Virus record (IMG/VR): IMGVR_UViG_3300037193_001894
Coordinates: 1 to 64,000 of that record
DNA from: a virus
Strand: one strand, 5' to 3'
DNA: 64,000 nucleotides
Position 1 is the first letter of the stretch. The number at the start of each line of letters is the position of its first letter. A program made the position numbers and the translations under genes. Below, piece after piece: positions 1 through 6,665 of this stretch. The notes beneath the pieces are model-generated. The model did not search any database, was not told the origin of the DNA, and was given only the letters and a program-made list of their open reading frames with translations.

Positions 1-690
1 AGGTGATTAGGAGCGAGAGTGCGGGCGCGTGCTTCAAGGTGAATGAGGGGCGTTGCTCCAGGCGCCACACCAAAGGCAGAACGAGAGCGGCGATTGCGAT
101 CTGTGCGAGCTCGACGCCGAGGTTGAATGACAGAAACGGAATCGCAGCCTGTTTCAAGCCACGATCGATCGTGCCGATGCCCAACTCGCGCAAAGCCGAT
201 GCGAACCCGAGGCCGTGGACCAGGCCGAACATGAACGTCACCAACCACCGCGCTGCAAGTCGTCGACGAAAAAGATTCTCCAGACCGACAAACACGATCG
301 AAGCGGCGATGACGGGCTCCACTAAAGCCGCGGAAACATTAATCACACCCAGCGTAGCCATCGCCAGAGTGAGCGAATGCGCCACGGTAAACGACGTGAT
401 GATCTTCGCGTTATCCCGCAGTGAACCCCCGGCGAGCAACAGCGCGAGCAGAAACGCCAGGTGATCGTAGCCGGTCAAAATGTGCTCGACGCCAAGCTGC
501 AGAAAACGCAGGAACGATTTGTTACCGCTGCCGGTCGGGCGCAAGTCGAGCGTGACGTCTGCTGATTCCGCGCTGAACATGCGTTCCGCCAGCAGCTTGT
601 TATCCTTGTCATAGACCGAGCAGAACTGCTTGTGTCCACGAGGTAGACTCGCGAGCACCGGCGCGCTGATTCGCAACCTCGCAGCCCCGG
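1..690 (-). CDS. hupE: HupE/UreJ-family membrane protein, fragment (not phage)
   Basis: This minus-strand frame is open from about 690 to the window edge. It reads as the C-terminal membrane part of a HupE/UreJ-family protein, a family linked to nickel or cobalt uptake for hydrogenase or urease. Visible motifs are GYDHLAFLLALLL, then VAHSLTLAMATLG, then GLVHGLGFASAL, each His-containing and inside hydrophobic segments, as in HupE. Before them comes the end of the extracytoplasmic region (ASLPRGHKQFC). The 3' end runs off the window and the 5' end is lost near 690, where phage sequence begins. GC is clearly lower than in the phage part, codon use differs, and no neighbour relates to it. The family call is firm; its presence in this molecule is probably an assembly artefact. 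Confidence 0.85.
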
Positions 691-3600
691 GGCTCGCCGT
701 CAGCACCCTCACCGATCGGCCGACCTCGGAACGCCAGCACCTGGCTGTTCTTGAGGTGCTCCTCGTCCCTCCAGCCCATCTCGTCGAGGTACTGGTGGAG
801 GTGGTGGGGATTCCAGAACGCCGAGTAGCCGGGCTTGGGCTCCCAGTACTTGGCCAGGTCCGGGTGAGGAGCCTCGCCGATGTTGCGGGTGCTGGCGTGC
901 TCGGGGCCGAAGGGCTGGTCCTTGCCGTGCAGCCGGTAGTAGAGGCCGTCCTCCATCGGCAGCGGGCCAGTCTTCGCCGCTGTCCAGGTCCACTCACCCT
1001 TGCCGGTGTTCTCCCTGAGGTACGACCAGCCCTTGTCCTGCCGGGTGAGCCCGCCGTTGTGGTAGCGCTCCACCTCGTCGAGGAGGTGCTCGGGCTCGCC
1101 GTGGATGGAGCGGATGTGGCGGTGCTCCACCTCTCCGGGACGGCGCTCCTGGGCCAGCCTCTTGGACTCCTCCGGCCAGGCCGAACTCACGGAGCCCTTG
1201 GGGTGCATCTGGTCGGTGTGGGTGACCTCGATGGTCTTCGGGTCGAACGCGATCGCGCAGTGGTGTCCCTTCGGCCCCTCCACGTCGTTGCCGTAGGTGA
1301 TGCCGTCGTGGCCCTCGTAGCGCAGGTGCTTGACGTAGGCCTCGGCGATCTCCTTCTGCCGGGGGTGGAACTGGAGGTAGGACTCCATCGAGGAGTGCGG
1401 GCCGGGCCGGTCCTTGGGCTGAGGGGCGTCCAGGCGGCTGTTGATGCCCGCCCGGGTGGCCCCGCTGCCGTAGTTCCAGCGGTGGTTCTCGTCGTGCTTG
1501 TCGTCGTGGAAGTGGTCGCTGCGCATCGTGGTGTTCCAGACGTGCCGCAGCAGGTCGTGCTCGTTGGCGAAGTGCACCGGGTTCTTCATCTTGAGCCGGG
1601 CATGGAAGATCCGGCCGTGAGCGGTGCCGTGGTGCTCTCCGGCGAAGCCGTGGGCCACCGAGTGCAGCGGGGAGAAGTGCACCCCGAGCAGCCTGTTCAT
1701 CTGCGGCCCACCGAAGCCCGGGCCGGGAGCCTGATGGCCAGCGTGGACCGCTGCCGGGTCGGGGTGGCCCTCGTACTCGCCGATGGTGCCGTGGAACCAC
1801 TCGTCGTGGTGGTGGTACGGGTTGGCCAGGTAGCCGTCGGCGCTGGCGGTCTTGGCGAGGTGCCCCTCGTTCAGCACCTCCACGGGCAGGTGCTTGAGCC
1901 CCGCGTCAGAGGCGGCATGGATGCGATGGTTGCCGTTGAGCACCCGCCCATTCAGGACGCGGATGTGGTCGTCGTCGGCGTCGGCGGAGTCCTCGTCGTA
2001 GCCACTCTGGCGCATCTGCTCGGCATACTGGCGCACCTTCTGCTCGTCCACGGCGTCGGAGGAGCGCGGCAGTGCGTACTCCAGCAACTTCGAGACCGAC
2101 ATGCGGGTGGTGTCCCTGCGGGCAGCCTGCTTGGCCAGGTGGGCGTGCTCGTGGGCGGGCTCGATGCCCGCGACATGGGCCACGGAGCCGTCCACGGTGC
2201 GCCACTCGCCCAGCGCGGAGACCTGGTAGCCCTGGGCTCCCGGCTTGGGGTGGCAGCGCAGCACCGCGAACTCGCTGGGGTGCGAGGCAGCCAGGCCCTT
2301 CTCGTCGTTCATGATGAAGCCCGGGTCCATGTGTCCCCCGGTGAACTGCCGCCACGTCGCGAACGTCTTGTAGAACTGGCTGCGCTGGCGCATCAGGTCG
2401 TCGCCGTGCACGGGCTGGTGCCAGGCGGTGTGCATCTCCTTGCCGCCGAACCGGATCGGGGTGGACCTCGGGTGCGGCTGCACGTCCTCGCCGTACTTGG
2501 CCCGGGCCTCCTCGACCGTGTGGGTGGCGTTGTGGTGCTCCACGCCGTTCAGGACGTTCTGGAGGCCCTCGGGGTAGGGGTCACCGTGCTTCCACTCCCC
2601 GGAGTCCGGGTGCGGCCCGCCGTGGCTGTAGACCATGTGCTTCTCGAAGCCGCCCTCGTGGGCCTGGCGCATCATGTCGTGCGGGGTGATCTTGCCGTTG
2701 AGCACCGAGTGGTACTCGTGCAGCGCCCGGTGGATGTGGTGGGCCACCTCGGGGTCGTCGGTGAAGGAGATCGTGTCGCTCTCGCCGCCGCCCAGGCCGT
2801 TGCCGCCGCGCTGGCTCAACTCGTCGCGGCTCTTGAGGGTGCCGTCGTGCAGCACGGCGGTCTTGTTGGTGGTGACGTGCCACAGCGTCTGCGGCAGCGG
2901 CTTCCAGGCCAGCCCGTGCCGGGGGGCGTCGTAGCCGGTGTCCTGGTCGTGGCCGCGCCCGTGGTAGCCGTTGGCCTTGGCCTCCTCGGGGTGGAGGTCA
3001 CCTCGCGAGAGGGCCTTGCGGACCTCGTGGGTCCAGGTGTTCTGGATCCGACGCTGCCGATCGCCGTGGGCCAAGATCTCGTCGTCGGTGCTGCCCTCGG
3101 GGGTGGTCTGGTACTTCGGCTTGGGCTGCCTCCAGATCGGCTCGGCCGAGGCGAAGTGCGAGAGCAGGGAGGCCGTCGCCTTGGGGTTGACCAGGTAGTG
3201 GCCTCTCCCGTCGGGGTTGATCAGGTGGTCCTGGCCCCGCTCCCTTGGCTGCTGGTGGCGGTGCGGGCTGCTCTCGTGCAGCCACTCCCACTTCTTCATG
3301 TGGATCTGCTCGTCGTCGAACGCGATGGCGCAGTGATGCCCCTTGGAGCCCTCGTACTCGTTGCCGTAGGTCACCCCGTCGTGGCCCTGGTCCTGGAGGT
3401 GCCGCTTGAACCCCGAGGTGATCTCCTCGCGGTCGGGGTGGAAGCGCAGGTAGTGGTCGAGGTGCTCCCCGCCCCGGTCGCCCGGCCCGTTGGCGTCGAT
3501 GTTGGCGATCGCCTCCCGGTGGGCCGGGGTGATCATGAAGGCGTCCATCACCGGGTGCAGGTGGTGGGCCTCGGACACGTCATCGTTGTCCCACTCGCCG

Positions 3601-4142
3601 TCGATGAAGGCCCGACGGGCGTCGTCGTCGTTGAACAGCCCATCGTGGTCGTACTCGTGGCCGTTCTTGTGCGCCCACCTGATCGCATCGCGGCTCATGT
3701 CGAACTCGGAGTCGTAGTGCTTGGGGTTGCCGATGTGCAGGCGGCAGTGCGCGATCCGGGACTCGGGCACCGGAGAGGATCCCGAGCCGGGGCGACCTGA
3801 GGCGAAGGACCTCGCGGTCCACCGGTCGCTGGTGAAGTGGGTGCCCAGGTCGGTGTTCCAGTGCTTGTCGGAGTTCTCGCCGTACTCGGACCCGACCGGC
3901 CCGTAGTGCTCCAGTCGGCCACCCGGGGGCGGGGCGGTCGGGTTCAGGTGCGGGGAGGACAGGTTGTGCTCCCCGGCCGGGTCGGGCGCGGTGCTGCGGC
4001 GCTTCTCGGGGTCGTTGTAGAACGTCTCGCTGGTCCCGTGGTACCAGTGCCGCCCGCCGTCACTCGGGTTCGGCAGGTGCGGTGCCACCGTGATGGCAGA
4101 CCGGAAGAACGACGAGAGCGAGAACACCAGGGACACCTCCAC
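609..4142 (-). CDS. Polyvalent protein with repeated ADP-ribosyltransferase-like domains and a ParB-like segment (3' truncated)
   Basis: The reading frame has 1177 codons, of which about the first 1152 are phage. Residues 31-280 and 780-975 are two copies of one ART-like domain. Both have an entry motif (WYHGT / WFHGT), a central strand (GTHFTSD / GVHFSP) and a near-identical C-terminal block (GHDGVTYGNEYEG and GHDGITYGNDVEG, each followed by GHHCAIAFD). A third ART-like segment starts near 418 (LWHVTTNKT) and a fourth near 1065 (GLYYRLHG to VLAFRGRPIGEG). Residues 680-765 look ParB-like (IRVLNGRVLNGNHRIHAASDAG). Proteins of this type are often injected with phage DNA or fused to MuF-like head proteins; its position after the large terminase fits that, but the role is inferred. 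Catalytic activity is not established. The GTG at 4142 is used; GTG at 4136 has a better-spaced AAGGGG. Confidence 0.75.
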   Translation of the reverse strand: MEVSLVFSLSSFFRSAITVAPHLPNPSDGGRHWYHGTSETFYNDPEKRRSTAPDPAGEHNLSSPHLNPTAPPPGGRLEHYGPVGSEYGENSDKHWNTDLGTHFTSDRWTARSFASGRPGSGSSPVPESRIAHCRLHIGNPKHYDSEFDMSRDAIRWAHKNGHEYDHDGLFNDDDARRAFIDGEWDNDDVSEAHHLHPVMDAFMITPAHREAIANIDANGPGDRGGEHLDHYLRFHPDREEITSGFKRHLQDQGHDGVTYGNEYEGSKGHHCAIAFDDEQIHMKKWEWLHESSPHRHQQPRERGQDHLINPDGRGHYLVNPKATASLLSHFASAEPIWRQPKPKYQTTPEGSTDDEILAHGDRQRRIQNTWTHEVRKALSRGDLHPEEAKANGYHGRGHDQDTGYDAPRHGLAWKPLPQTLWHVTTNKTAVLHDGTLKSRDELSQRGGNGLGGGESDTISFTDDPEVAHHIHRALHEYHSVLNGKITPHDMMRQAHEGGFEKHMVYSHGGPHPDSGEWKHGDPYPEGLQNVLNGVEHHNATHTVEEARAKYGEDVQPHPRSTPIRFGGKEMHTAWHQPVHGDDLMRQRSQFYKTFATWRQFTGGHMDPGFIMNDEKGLAASHPSEFAVLRCHPKPGAQGYQVSALGEWRTVDGSVAHVAGIEPAHEHAHLAKQAARRDTTRMSVSKLLEYALPRSSDAVDEQKVRQYAEQMRQSGYDEDSADADDDHIRVLNGRVLNGNHRIHAASDAGLKHLPVEVLNEGHLAKTASADGYLANPYHHHDEWFHGTIGEYEGHPDPAAVHAGHQAPGPGFGGPQMNRLLGVHFSPLHSVAHGFAGEHHGTAHGRIFHARLKMKNPVHFANEHDLLRHVWNTTMRSDHFHDDKHDENHRWNYGSGATRAGINSRLDAPQPKDRPGPHSSMESYLQFHPRQKEIAEAYVKHLRYEGHDGITYGNDVEGPKGHHCAIAFDPKTIEVTHTDQMHPKGSVSSAWPEESKRLAQERRPGEVEHRHIRSIHGEPEHLLDEVERYHNGGLTRQDKGWSYLRENTGKGEWTWTAAKTGPLPMEDGLYYRLHGKDQPFGPEHASTRNIGEAPHPDLAKYWEPKPGYSAFWNPHHLHQYLDEMGWRDEEHLKNSQVLAFRGRPIGEGADGEPRGCEVANQRAGARESTSWTQAVLLGL
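660..700. other. Chimeric junction between phage and bacterial sequence
   Basis: The phage polyvalent-protein frame is sensible up to about residue 1152 (RPIGEGADGEPRG, codons ending near 690). It then continues for only about 25 unrelated residues to a stop at 609. The HupE frame becomes family-like from LRISAPVLASLPRGHK (about 640-680), in a different frame. The join therefore lies between roughly 660 and 700. I see no repeat, integrase or attachment site there. Composition changes at the same place. Confidence 0.75.
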
Positions 4143-4598: not shown

Positions 4599-6665
4599 CT
4601 AGCGCCGGGTGCCCCGACGCGGCATCCGGGAGGGCGTCATGTCGGCCCGGCCCCGTGCTCGGCCGAACGAGGAGAGTTGGGCCAGCCGCTGGTCGGTGTC
4701 GTGGTCGGCCGGTGCGCTCATCCCCGGGAACGGCTCCATGCCGCCCTCCATCGCCGCCCCGGGCCGGAAGGACGACAACTCCGAGTGCAGGAAGTTGTTC
4801 ACCTGCTCGCCGATCAGCACGTGGATGCACTCCATCATCGCGTCGGCGATGTCCTTGGACTGCACCGGACCCGACGAGGGGTGGTCCACCCGGCCGTTGA
4901 CCAGTTGGAGGAAGCGCAGTTCGAGTTCGGCCCGCTCGTAGTAGGGGGCGTGCACCAGATCGAGGTTGATCGCGGCCTTCGAGTTCTCCTTGACCTGCCA
5001 GTCGTACTGCCGCGTCGAGGTCTTCTCGAAGACCTGGACGTTCTTGGTCAGCCGGGGGTTGGCGGTGCGGATCTTCTTCTGCATCTTCTGGATCGAGGAG
5101 GTGGAGTTGTACTGGTCGTAGGTGAACTCGCCCGGCACGAAGGCCTTGATCAGGTTCTCCCAGATCCAGTTGTCCACGTGCTCGTAGTCGATGATGCTGT
5201 CGGGGAAGTCCTTCGGGTCGAAGTGGCCGATCTGGTCGAAGACGCAGTGCGGTCGGCCCTCCTCGTCGTACTCCACGTGGGCCAGGGCGTAGCCGAACTT
5301 GTCGTTGACCTTCGATGGGTCGGCGTGGCCCTTGTAGGTGTGCGCCATGATCCCCCGGGTCTGCATGAACAACTCGGGCGGGCCGTACTTGCTGGGGCGC
5401 TGCTGCCAGGGCCGGAAGACGTTCTTGACCTTCTCCTCGTTGAGGTAGGCGTCCAGGGCTGCGGCCCACTTCGCCCGGCGCTCGACCTTGAAGGTGTCGG
5501 GGTTGGCCCGCTCCTCGCGCTCCATCTGCTCGTCGTAGACCTGGATCGCCCCGCGCAGCACCACGAACTGCGGGTGCTCCACCATGTCGGGGTTCTCGGG
5601 GTCGTACTCGCCGAGGTCCCCCATGAACTCCTCGGGGAACAGCGGGAGGATCGCGGTGCGCTCCCAGTCCTTGTAGATGTCCCAGGAGGCCAACTGGAGC
5701 GAGAGCATGTCGGGGTAGGCGAAGTCCCCGTTCTCGTCCTTCTCGTTGGCGTGCAGCCAGTTGTCGTAGAACTGGCCCAGCATCTGCCAGGGGCTCGACG
5801 GCTCGACGATGAAGGCGTCCTTGCCGAACTGGTCCAGCGAGGGCTTCGCGGCCTCGTAGACCTCACCGGCCGACCGGTTGGCTCCGGAGGCCACCACGTG
5901 GGCCATCTCGTCGTAGGCCTGCATCATCGAGGTCGGACCACGACCGGCCATCACCGTGGACTCGCGGGGCTGGATGATGAACGTCGCCTGGTCCCGCTCG
6001 GTGCGGATCCCCTTGGCTGCCTGGTTCCGCATCCTCACGAAGTCGTGCGGCGCGTAGATCGACAACTTCTCGGTGTGGTCGTCGCTGATGTAGGGGGCGA
6101 AGCACGTCGAGCCGGTGATCACGTTCACCAGGTCGCCGAAGACCGTGGCCTTGGCCTGGTCGCGCTTGCCCGCGAAGATCAGGCAGACCAACTTCTTGTC
6201 GCGGTCCACCCCGTAGAAGCCCTGCGGGTCGCCCTTGGCCATGTAGTTCCAGAGCACGTAGGCCATGCACAGCGCCGTCACGTGGCCCTTGCCAGCGCGT
6301 CGGCCCATGACCAGCAGGACCTCGCGGAACCACTTGTGGCCCCGAGCCCGCAGCAGCCGCATCTTGAACAGCACGCCGGGGGCCAGCCCCTCGGTGCCGT
6401 TGCTCAGCCGGTAGGCCTCCTCCCACTCCTCGATGACCGTGTAGTCGTAGGGGGTGAACAGGTCCTCGCGGAGGAAGACGACCTTGATCAGCGTCGCCTG
6501 GCGGGGGTAGAGGTTGCCACGGTTGAGCCACTTCTCCCCGCACACGAAGGTGATCGGGTCCGGCACCTCGATACCGGTGAACAACTGGTGCATCGTGTCC
6601 AGGCCGAACGCCAAAGGGGGCGTACCCGCTTGGGATACGCCCCTCAGTGCCGTGGCCGAGGACAT
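4599..6665 (-). CDS. terL: Terminase large subunit
   Basis: This 688-residue ATPase/nuclease would drive DNA into the prohead at the portal vertex. The N-terminal part has a Walker-A-like loop GRRAGKG (about 121-127) after a hydrophobic strand, and a Walker B with catalytic glutamate in MQAYDEMAH (about 248). The C-terminal part carries acidic residues expected for an RNase-H-like nuclease (DQYNS, and SKDIADAMM near 628). Length fits the family. The ATG overlaps the stop of the upstream 146-residue gene by one base. A hairpin follows downstream. Assignment is by motifs; the packaging mode (headful or cohesive ends) cannot be told. Confidence 0.9.
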   Translation of the reverse strand: MSSATALRGVSQAGTPPLAFGLDTMHQLFTGIEVPDPITFVCGEKWLNRGNLYPRQATLIKVVFLREDLFTPYDYTVIEEWEEAYRLSNGTEGLAPGVLFKMRLLRARGHKWFREVLLVMGRRAGKGHVTALCMAYVLWNYMAKGDPQGFYGVDRDKKLVCLIFAGKRDQAKATVFGDLVNVITGSTCFAPYISDDHTEKLSIYAPHDFVRMRNQAAKGIRTERDQATFIIQPRESTVMAGRGPTSMMQAYDEMAHVVASGANRSAGEVYEAAKPSLDQFGKDAFIVEPSSPWQMLGQFYDNWLHANEKDENGDFAYPDMLSLQLASWDIYKDWERTAILPLFPEEFMGDLGEYDPENPDMVEHPQFVVLRGAIQVYDEQMEREERANPDTFKVERRAKWAAALDAYLNEEKVKNVFRPWQQRPSKYGPPELFMQTRGIMAHTYKGHADPSKVNDKFGYALAHVEYDEEGRPHCVFDQIGHFDPKDFPDSIIDYEHVDNWIWENLIKAFVPGEFTYDQYNSTSSIQKMQKKIRTANPRLTKNVQVFEKTSTRQYDWQVKENSKAAINLDLVHAPYYERAELELRFLQLVNGRVDHPSSGPVQSKDIADAMMECIHVLIGEQVNNFLHSELSSFRPGAAMEGGMEPFPGMSAPADHDTDQRLAQLSSFGRARGRADMTPSRMPRRGTRR

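Follow-up and report, generated by a model that had tools for sequence, protein, structure and literature searches.

How do the unlike domains of phage polyvalent proteins enter the head, and how do they separate? Known work leaves this question open, and we address it here for the gene of one such protein, which lies next to the terminase large subunit gene (TerL) in a 64,000-nucleotide (nt) stretch of DNA from a soil phage, hereafter the window (bases 1-64000 of the 81,351-bp virus record IMGVR_UViG_3300037193_001894). An earlier note on this DNA had described the product as a polyvalent protein with at least three ADP-ribosyltransferase (ART)-like domains and a ParB-like segment, and polyvalent proteins with several ARTs, encoded close to the terminase, have been described before (PMC5512222, PMC9503650). 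New here are two short motifs that are repeated almost exclusively between the modules. A tag and a cleavage-like site can now be read from the sequence, and we think it probable that this phage polyvalent protein is a string of effector modules that would be packaged into the head by its tags, cut by a protease and injected.

Two short motifs recur at the junctions between modules

The features of the locus are collected in Table 1. Motif 1, xx[DS]L[LV]x[HF]F[AR]xA, is found at N-termini and at module starts, and many genes of the family begin with it. With the tested genome left out, we counted 38 copies for 2.2 expected; a scan of 768,418 residues encoded by other frames gave no match, and the motif recurs in three later contigs that were not part of its construction. 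Motif 2, [KRH]TA[ASTV], occurs 51 times for 6.8 expected. Inside the modules, which hold 40% of the residues, fall only one of 41 copies of motif 1 and four of 51 copies of motif 2 (P=2e-8 and 3e-7). Furthermore, TA[AST] precedes 6 of the 26 internal copies of motif 1, compared with 0.85 expected. Motif 1 looks like a capsid-targeting tag. In the literature that we searched, which is not all of the literature, we came across no tags or prohead-protease sites placed between modules.

Table 1. Features of the polyvalent gene and its surroundings in the window
Feature	Position (nt)	Strand	Remarks
Polyvalent protein, open frame	609..4142	-	1177 residues; phage-derived part about 4127..687
Junction motif 1, N-terminal copy, VFSLSSFFRSAIT	4089..4127	-	residues 6-18; matrix built without this genome; capsid-targeting-like tag
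Module A1, ART-PolyVal-like ADP-ribosyltransferase	3288..4061	-	candidate site H35, H102, D255; N261 and E264 also conserved
Junction motif 1, second copy, TASLLSHFASAEP	3138..3176	-	residues 323-335, directly before module B
Module B, conserved domain of about 340 residues, HVTT...GLGGGExDTISFT...EWRT	2115..3125	-	candidate residues H422, S459, E646
ParB-like segment with GNHRIHAASDAG	1863..2075	-	homologous segments in relatives
Junction motif 2, KTAS, between ParB and A2	1842..1853	-	residues 764-767; candidate prohead-protease site
Module A2, second ART-PolyVal-like domain	1209..1835	-	candidate site H784, H822, D946
Module C, GLYYRLH...GYSAF...GEGADGEP, cut by the chimera junction	687..965	-	residues 1060-1152
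HupE/UreJ-like bacterial gene fragment, foreign DNA joined to the phage contig (chimera)	1..686	-	Pfam match and composition
Terminase large subunit, directly upstream of the polyvalent gene	4599..6665	-	PHROG terminase, E=5e-7

Motif 2 is shared with head proteins and head proteases of cultured phages

The nearest cultured relatives by TerL (30-33%) are the Rhodococcus phages E3 and Finch, Eggerthella phage LE2-3, the Mycobacterium phages Phrappuccino and Settecandela, and Bixzunavirus. The core form of motif 2, [KRH]TA[AS], is abundant in the head genes of four cultured phages: Finch has 9 copies (0.5 expected), LE2-3 has 10 (0.9), Settecandela 8 (0.6) and Alice 4 (0.4). The other structural genes tested of these four phages hold one copy in all, and tail genes are nearly free of it. 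Several copies lie close to protein ends, at residues 41 and 1054 of the 1073-residue LE2-3 portal, at residue 16 of the Settecandela portal and at residues 10 and 969 of the 989-residue Finch gp17, positions suggestive of propeptide sites. A head maturation protease domain is present in both Finch gp17 and Settecandela gp53 (PHROG, E about 1e-19), homologues of this protease occur in 10 of 12 genomes of the phage family, and of seven precursors examined, six contain sites. The bias of [KRH]TA[AS] towards head genes, the head protease included, and its near absence from tail genes make it look like a prohead-protease site. Most simply, the polyvalent proteins would be packaged into the head as substrates of this same protease.

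Several observations weigh against this reading. The motif tests were devised once the sequences had been seen, and the window protein has a single perfect motif 2 site at a junction. The protease precursor of one relative (L077) lacks a perfect site, as do the major capsid proteins of Finch, LE2-3 and Settecandela, though prohead proteases usually cut this protein. In the relatives, TerL and the polyvalent cassette lie far from the head-protease gene.

Alternatively, the product could be an ordinary polyvalent protein, packaged and injected whole or cut by a zincin-type peptidase domain of its own, with the junction motifs acting as linkers or docking peptides. Release through a built-in zincin peptidase, by metallopeptidase autoprocessing, has indeed been proposed for polyvalent proteins (PMC5512222), and HExxH zincin modules are present in some relatives; the N4 virion RNA polymerase is packaged uncut, and P1 DarB is a packaged protein of 250 kDa. 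However, most cassettes are devoid of zincin modules, whereas [KRH]TA[AS] is also found in head genes of the four cultured phages, among them those for the portal and the head protease, and hardly in tail genes. We consider this explanation unlikely and retain cleavage by the head protease as the preferred one.

Some of these proteases were themselves unannotated. Finch gp17 (L050:15514-18483) and Settecandela gp53 (L054:17081-19639), recognised by their PHROG matches, and Alice gp90 (L055:6679-11214), identified by alignment, are head-maturation proteases fused to long extra regions. The gene of Eggerthella phage LE2-3 listed as a 'tRNA synthetase' (MW679026.1, L052:11223-14336) aligns with the Finch, Settecandela and Alice protease and is apparently interrupted by an insert.

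Modules A1 and A2 are ART-PolyVal-like domains

The earlier note had singled out residues 31-280 and 780-975 as clear duplicates sharing GHDG(V/I)TYGN and GHHCAIAFD, and this is borne out. A1 and A2 represent one domain in two diverged versions: a search with one retrieves the other at E=6e-22, and a hidden Markov model of the A family retrieves both (E=2e-76 and 2e-70). Their signatures are WYHGT (residue 33), GHDGVTYGN (253) and HCAIAF (270) in A1, and WFHGT (782), GHDGITYGN (944) and HCAIAF (961) in A2. With single-copy exceptions, W(Y/F)HG, LGxHF(T/S), NPKxYxSE, GHDG(I/V)xYGNxxE and AIAFxPxQ recur across the 13 A copies compared, which come from seven related contigs and from the window.

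A close homologue on a phage contig of Streptomyces sp. A0642 (L017) scores 50.2 bits against PF18760 (ART-PolyVal), well over the cut-off of 31.2 (48.3 bits in a second run), and other family members match this model weakly (E=1e-5 to 0.015). The structure model of A1 and B together (mean pLDDT 72) matches viral models annotated as PolyVal ADP-ribosyltransferase in BFVD with a probability of up to 1.00, although the search did not resolve which of the two modules was matched. In the PDB, the model best matches a pre-ejectosome chain of cyanophage A4 (E=0.0066, probability 1.00), and PARP ARTs come next with weak matches; a PDB sequence search with the whole protein and with profiles of A, B and C gave no credible match. 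Because the Streptomyces homologue passes the PF18760 cut-off and the fold matches PolyVal ARTs, we assign the A family to ART-PolyVal: A1 and A2 are ADP-ribosyltransferase domains of this kind, with putative activity.

The ART active site of polyvalent proteins has been given as H-Y-D (PMC5512222). The A modules are H-H-D and lack the R-S-E site of the T4 Alt/VIP2 ARTs. Three points count against an active ART: the window's own A copies match no Pfam model, PF18760 included; the strand-2 tyrosine is replaced by histidine in all A copies; and in some paralogues the aspartate is lost to arginine (GHRGITYGN). Since the tyrosine is a histidine and some paralogues are without the aspartate, catalysis is putative. 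The copies could thus be catalytically dead binding or structural modules, and the protein a component of the head core or scaffold. Nevertheless, neither outcome that would have spoken against an ART, a fold unrelated to ARTs or loss of the NAD-site residues in all copies, occurred for the A modules: the fold matches PolyVal ARTs, and the histidine and aspartate are retained in both window copies (H35/H784, D255/D946). Moreover, relatives have added a second ART family, Arr-like (PF12120, above the Pfam cut-off), in 7 of 13 genomes, with as many as four matches in one genome, and this hints at selection for ADP-ribose chemistry. We hold dead copies to be quite improbable, and prefer ARTs that would act in the host.

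Module B, the ParB-like segment and module C

The claim of at least three ART-like domains is not supported in that form: of the four segments proposed, two (A1 and A2) could be confirmed as ARTs, B is plausible and C has no fold match. The further segments proposed near residues 418 and 1065 and the ParB-like patch do lie where they were placed, with LWHVTT at residue 420, LYYRLH at 1067 and GNHRI at 737. Module B (residues 340-676) is common to six contigs. It matches no known ART in Pfam or by profile, and profile comparison detected no homology between A and B; its confident model has an ART-like strand order with H/S/E candidate residues, and B is probably ART-like.

The window's ParB-like segment has no ParB_N profile match; the equivalent of one relative matches ParB_N at E=0.002, below the cut-off. 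The ParB-like patch itself is real and has homologous counterparts in relatives, and the description as a polyvalent protein with such a segment is supported. In module C, R, S and E occur in the order of R-S-E ARTs. The predicted fold of C, however, has no match in the PDB (best E=0.87, probability 0.06); this test is weak, as the five models disagree.

A shuffled cassette behind the terminase

TerL is directly upstream of the polyvalent gene, which the earlier note had placed beside the terminase. Searches with the protein and its modules, with TerL, and again with A revealed such genes in at least 14 related contigs and in one 152-kb Streptomyces contig, mostly right behind TerL; TerL homologues of 48-60% identity lie directly upstream in most relatives. 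In the relatives examined, the cassette behind TerL comprises one to three genes of about 600-2860 residues each, and on contig 3300010396_000001 about 9 kb separate it from TerL. The window protein has no match among 50,697 cultured phage records. A tblastn search with the Finch and LE2-3 portals retrieved no homologue among the relatives' loci.

Module families are swapped among the relatives: ART-PolyVal, Arr-like, R-S-E-like, ParB, GNAT, zincin, Nudix, nucleotidyltransferase (NTase) and 2H. The 2H phosphoesterase modules occur in 9 of 13 genomes, and Nudix and GNAT are also present; the NTase, zincin, RelE-like and R-S-E ART-like modules of relatives were assigned by sequence reading alone. 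Arr-like PF12120 was found neither in the window protein nor elsewhere on its 81-kb contig. The window protein combines biochemically disparate domains, the mark of a polyvalent protein, with two that are ART-PolyVal-like and one ParB-like; relatives contribute NTase, 2H, Nudix, GNAT and Arr. Its gene also has the phage location close to late or virion genes that is typical of this group, since it directly follows TerL, as do its counterparts in most relatives.

The 2H, Nudix and NTase modules could target nucleotide signals of host defence (PMC5512222), which would suit a gene expressed early in the host as an unpackaged counter-defence or takeover protein; the fixed place behind TerL and the motifs shared with head proteins make this very doubtful.

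The host is probably Streptomyces, because the A module was found in one of 393 sampled genomes of this genus, on a 152,548-bp contig whose TerL is 58% identical. This contig, NZ_SSBL01000019.1 of Streptomyces sp. A0642, resembles a complete phage or phage-plasmid of the same family.

A proposed packaged and processed effector string

The computed features are the domain family of A1 and A2, a position of the gene after TerL that is conserved, the shuffling of modules, both junction motifs, and the occurrence of motif 2 in head proteins and head proteases as well. From these we infer packaging, cleavage, injection, activity and targets as follows. The string of two ART-PolyVal modules, a probable third ART-like module, a ParB-like segment, one further domain and a lost C-terminal part would be made late, together with the packaging genes. 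The LLxHF/FFRxA tag at its N-terminus and internal junctions may draw it into the prohead, where the phage head-maturation protease would cleave at [KRH]TA[AS] and free separate modules. These would be injected along with the DNA, and early in infection the ARTs could modify host targets by ADP-ribosylation with NAD+. For injection, which the earlier note had suggested, the conserved position behind TerL and the junction motifs in common with head proteins of cultured relatives are indirect support. With somewhat less assurance, we lean towards a general form of this proposal, in which the cassette behind TerL of Streptomyces-type myophages encodes an injected-effector polyprotein with a tag before each module and a protease site between modules, the single effectors being released in the capsid by the head-maturation protease itself and modules being freely exchanged among phages.

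Since ordinary head proteins of phages that can be cultured share such features, the question of packaging can be put to the test in laboratory strains; tag and site together would also allow head-packaged effectors to be spotted in unannotated phage genomes.

Comparison with known systems

Like the polyvalent proteins of Iyer et al. 2017 (PMC5512222), the window protein is a big mosaic of disparate phage domains encoded near late genes. In that family, ARTs are the commonest effectors, with up to 12 copies, and ParB, GNAT, zincin and 2H modules are known. Here, in contrast, several ART types are shuffled inside one cassette family, and packaging-like tags and prohead-protease-like sites are repeated between modules. 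R-S-E-like modules and pol-beta-like NTases also appear here in phage-type proteins, whereas in PMC5512222 R-S-E ARTs stand outside genuine polyvalent proteins and pol-beta NTases are confined to conjugative elements.

The A modules share with PF18760 (Tox-ART-HYD2 clade) the histidine in strand 1, the aspartate in the (Y/H)DG strand, the N..E pair and the AIxFxPxQI tail. They differ by the histidine in strand 2 and by a long insert between strands, and the copies in the window have diverged too far to be recognised by the model. The Arr-ms rifampin ADP-ribosyltransferase (PF12120) has its counterparts in modules of relatives but not in the window protein.

As proposed here, T4 Alt and the other internal proteins are packaged in the head and ejected, a short N-terminal capsid-targeting sequence being removed by the prohead protease (PMC7411985). 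Alt is also an ART, but of the R-S-E type and with a single tag, while the single polypeptide described here has tags and sites repeated from module to module. DarB of phage P1 is likewise a multidomain protein of very large size that is packaged in the head, its packaging signal lying in the N-terminal 30 residues (PMC9024508); no consensus tag was found for the Dar proteins, whereas one exists here and is repeated internally.

Gene borders and the foreign contig end

The frame is confirmed as real. Translation likely starts at GTG 4127, in line with the conserved N-terminal motif of relatives. The phage-coded portion stops near nt 687, at the conserved ...GEGADGEP, and the final ~25 codons of the listed open reading frame are thus foreign. 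Indeed, nt 1 to ~686 code, in a different frame, for a HupE_UreJ_2 protein (PF13795, E=7e-44). Their GC content is 58.8% against 67.7%, the lowest among 190 segments of 660 bp, and at third codon positions it is 72% against 95%. Since the HupE and polyvalent genes are cut at one same point, the contig most likely ends in a chimera, with loss of the C-terminus of the polyvalent protein; the earlier note was right that it is missing, the frame running into HupE/UreJ DNA. Intact genes of this kind are present on related contigs. A genuine phage HupE gene is ruled out by this shared break and by the jump in composition. Matches of the window protein to DUF1585 and a DNA methyltransferase were dropped as below the cut-off or weak.

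Additional observations

The large proteins downstream of the cassette matched no known family. On contig 3300036790_000396 (L004:4426-7524) the terminase has an intein-like insert of ~330 residues, and its match to the window TerL splits near residue 475. Finally, a low-complexity protein family of no known affiliation, with repeated HTAA/RTAA sites, lies downstream of the cassette (L040:6626-8572, L041:8934-12782, L042:4120-5745, L043:5988-7595).
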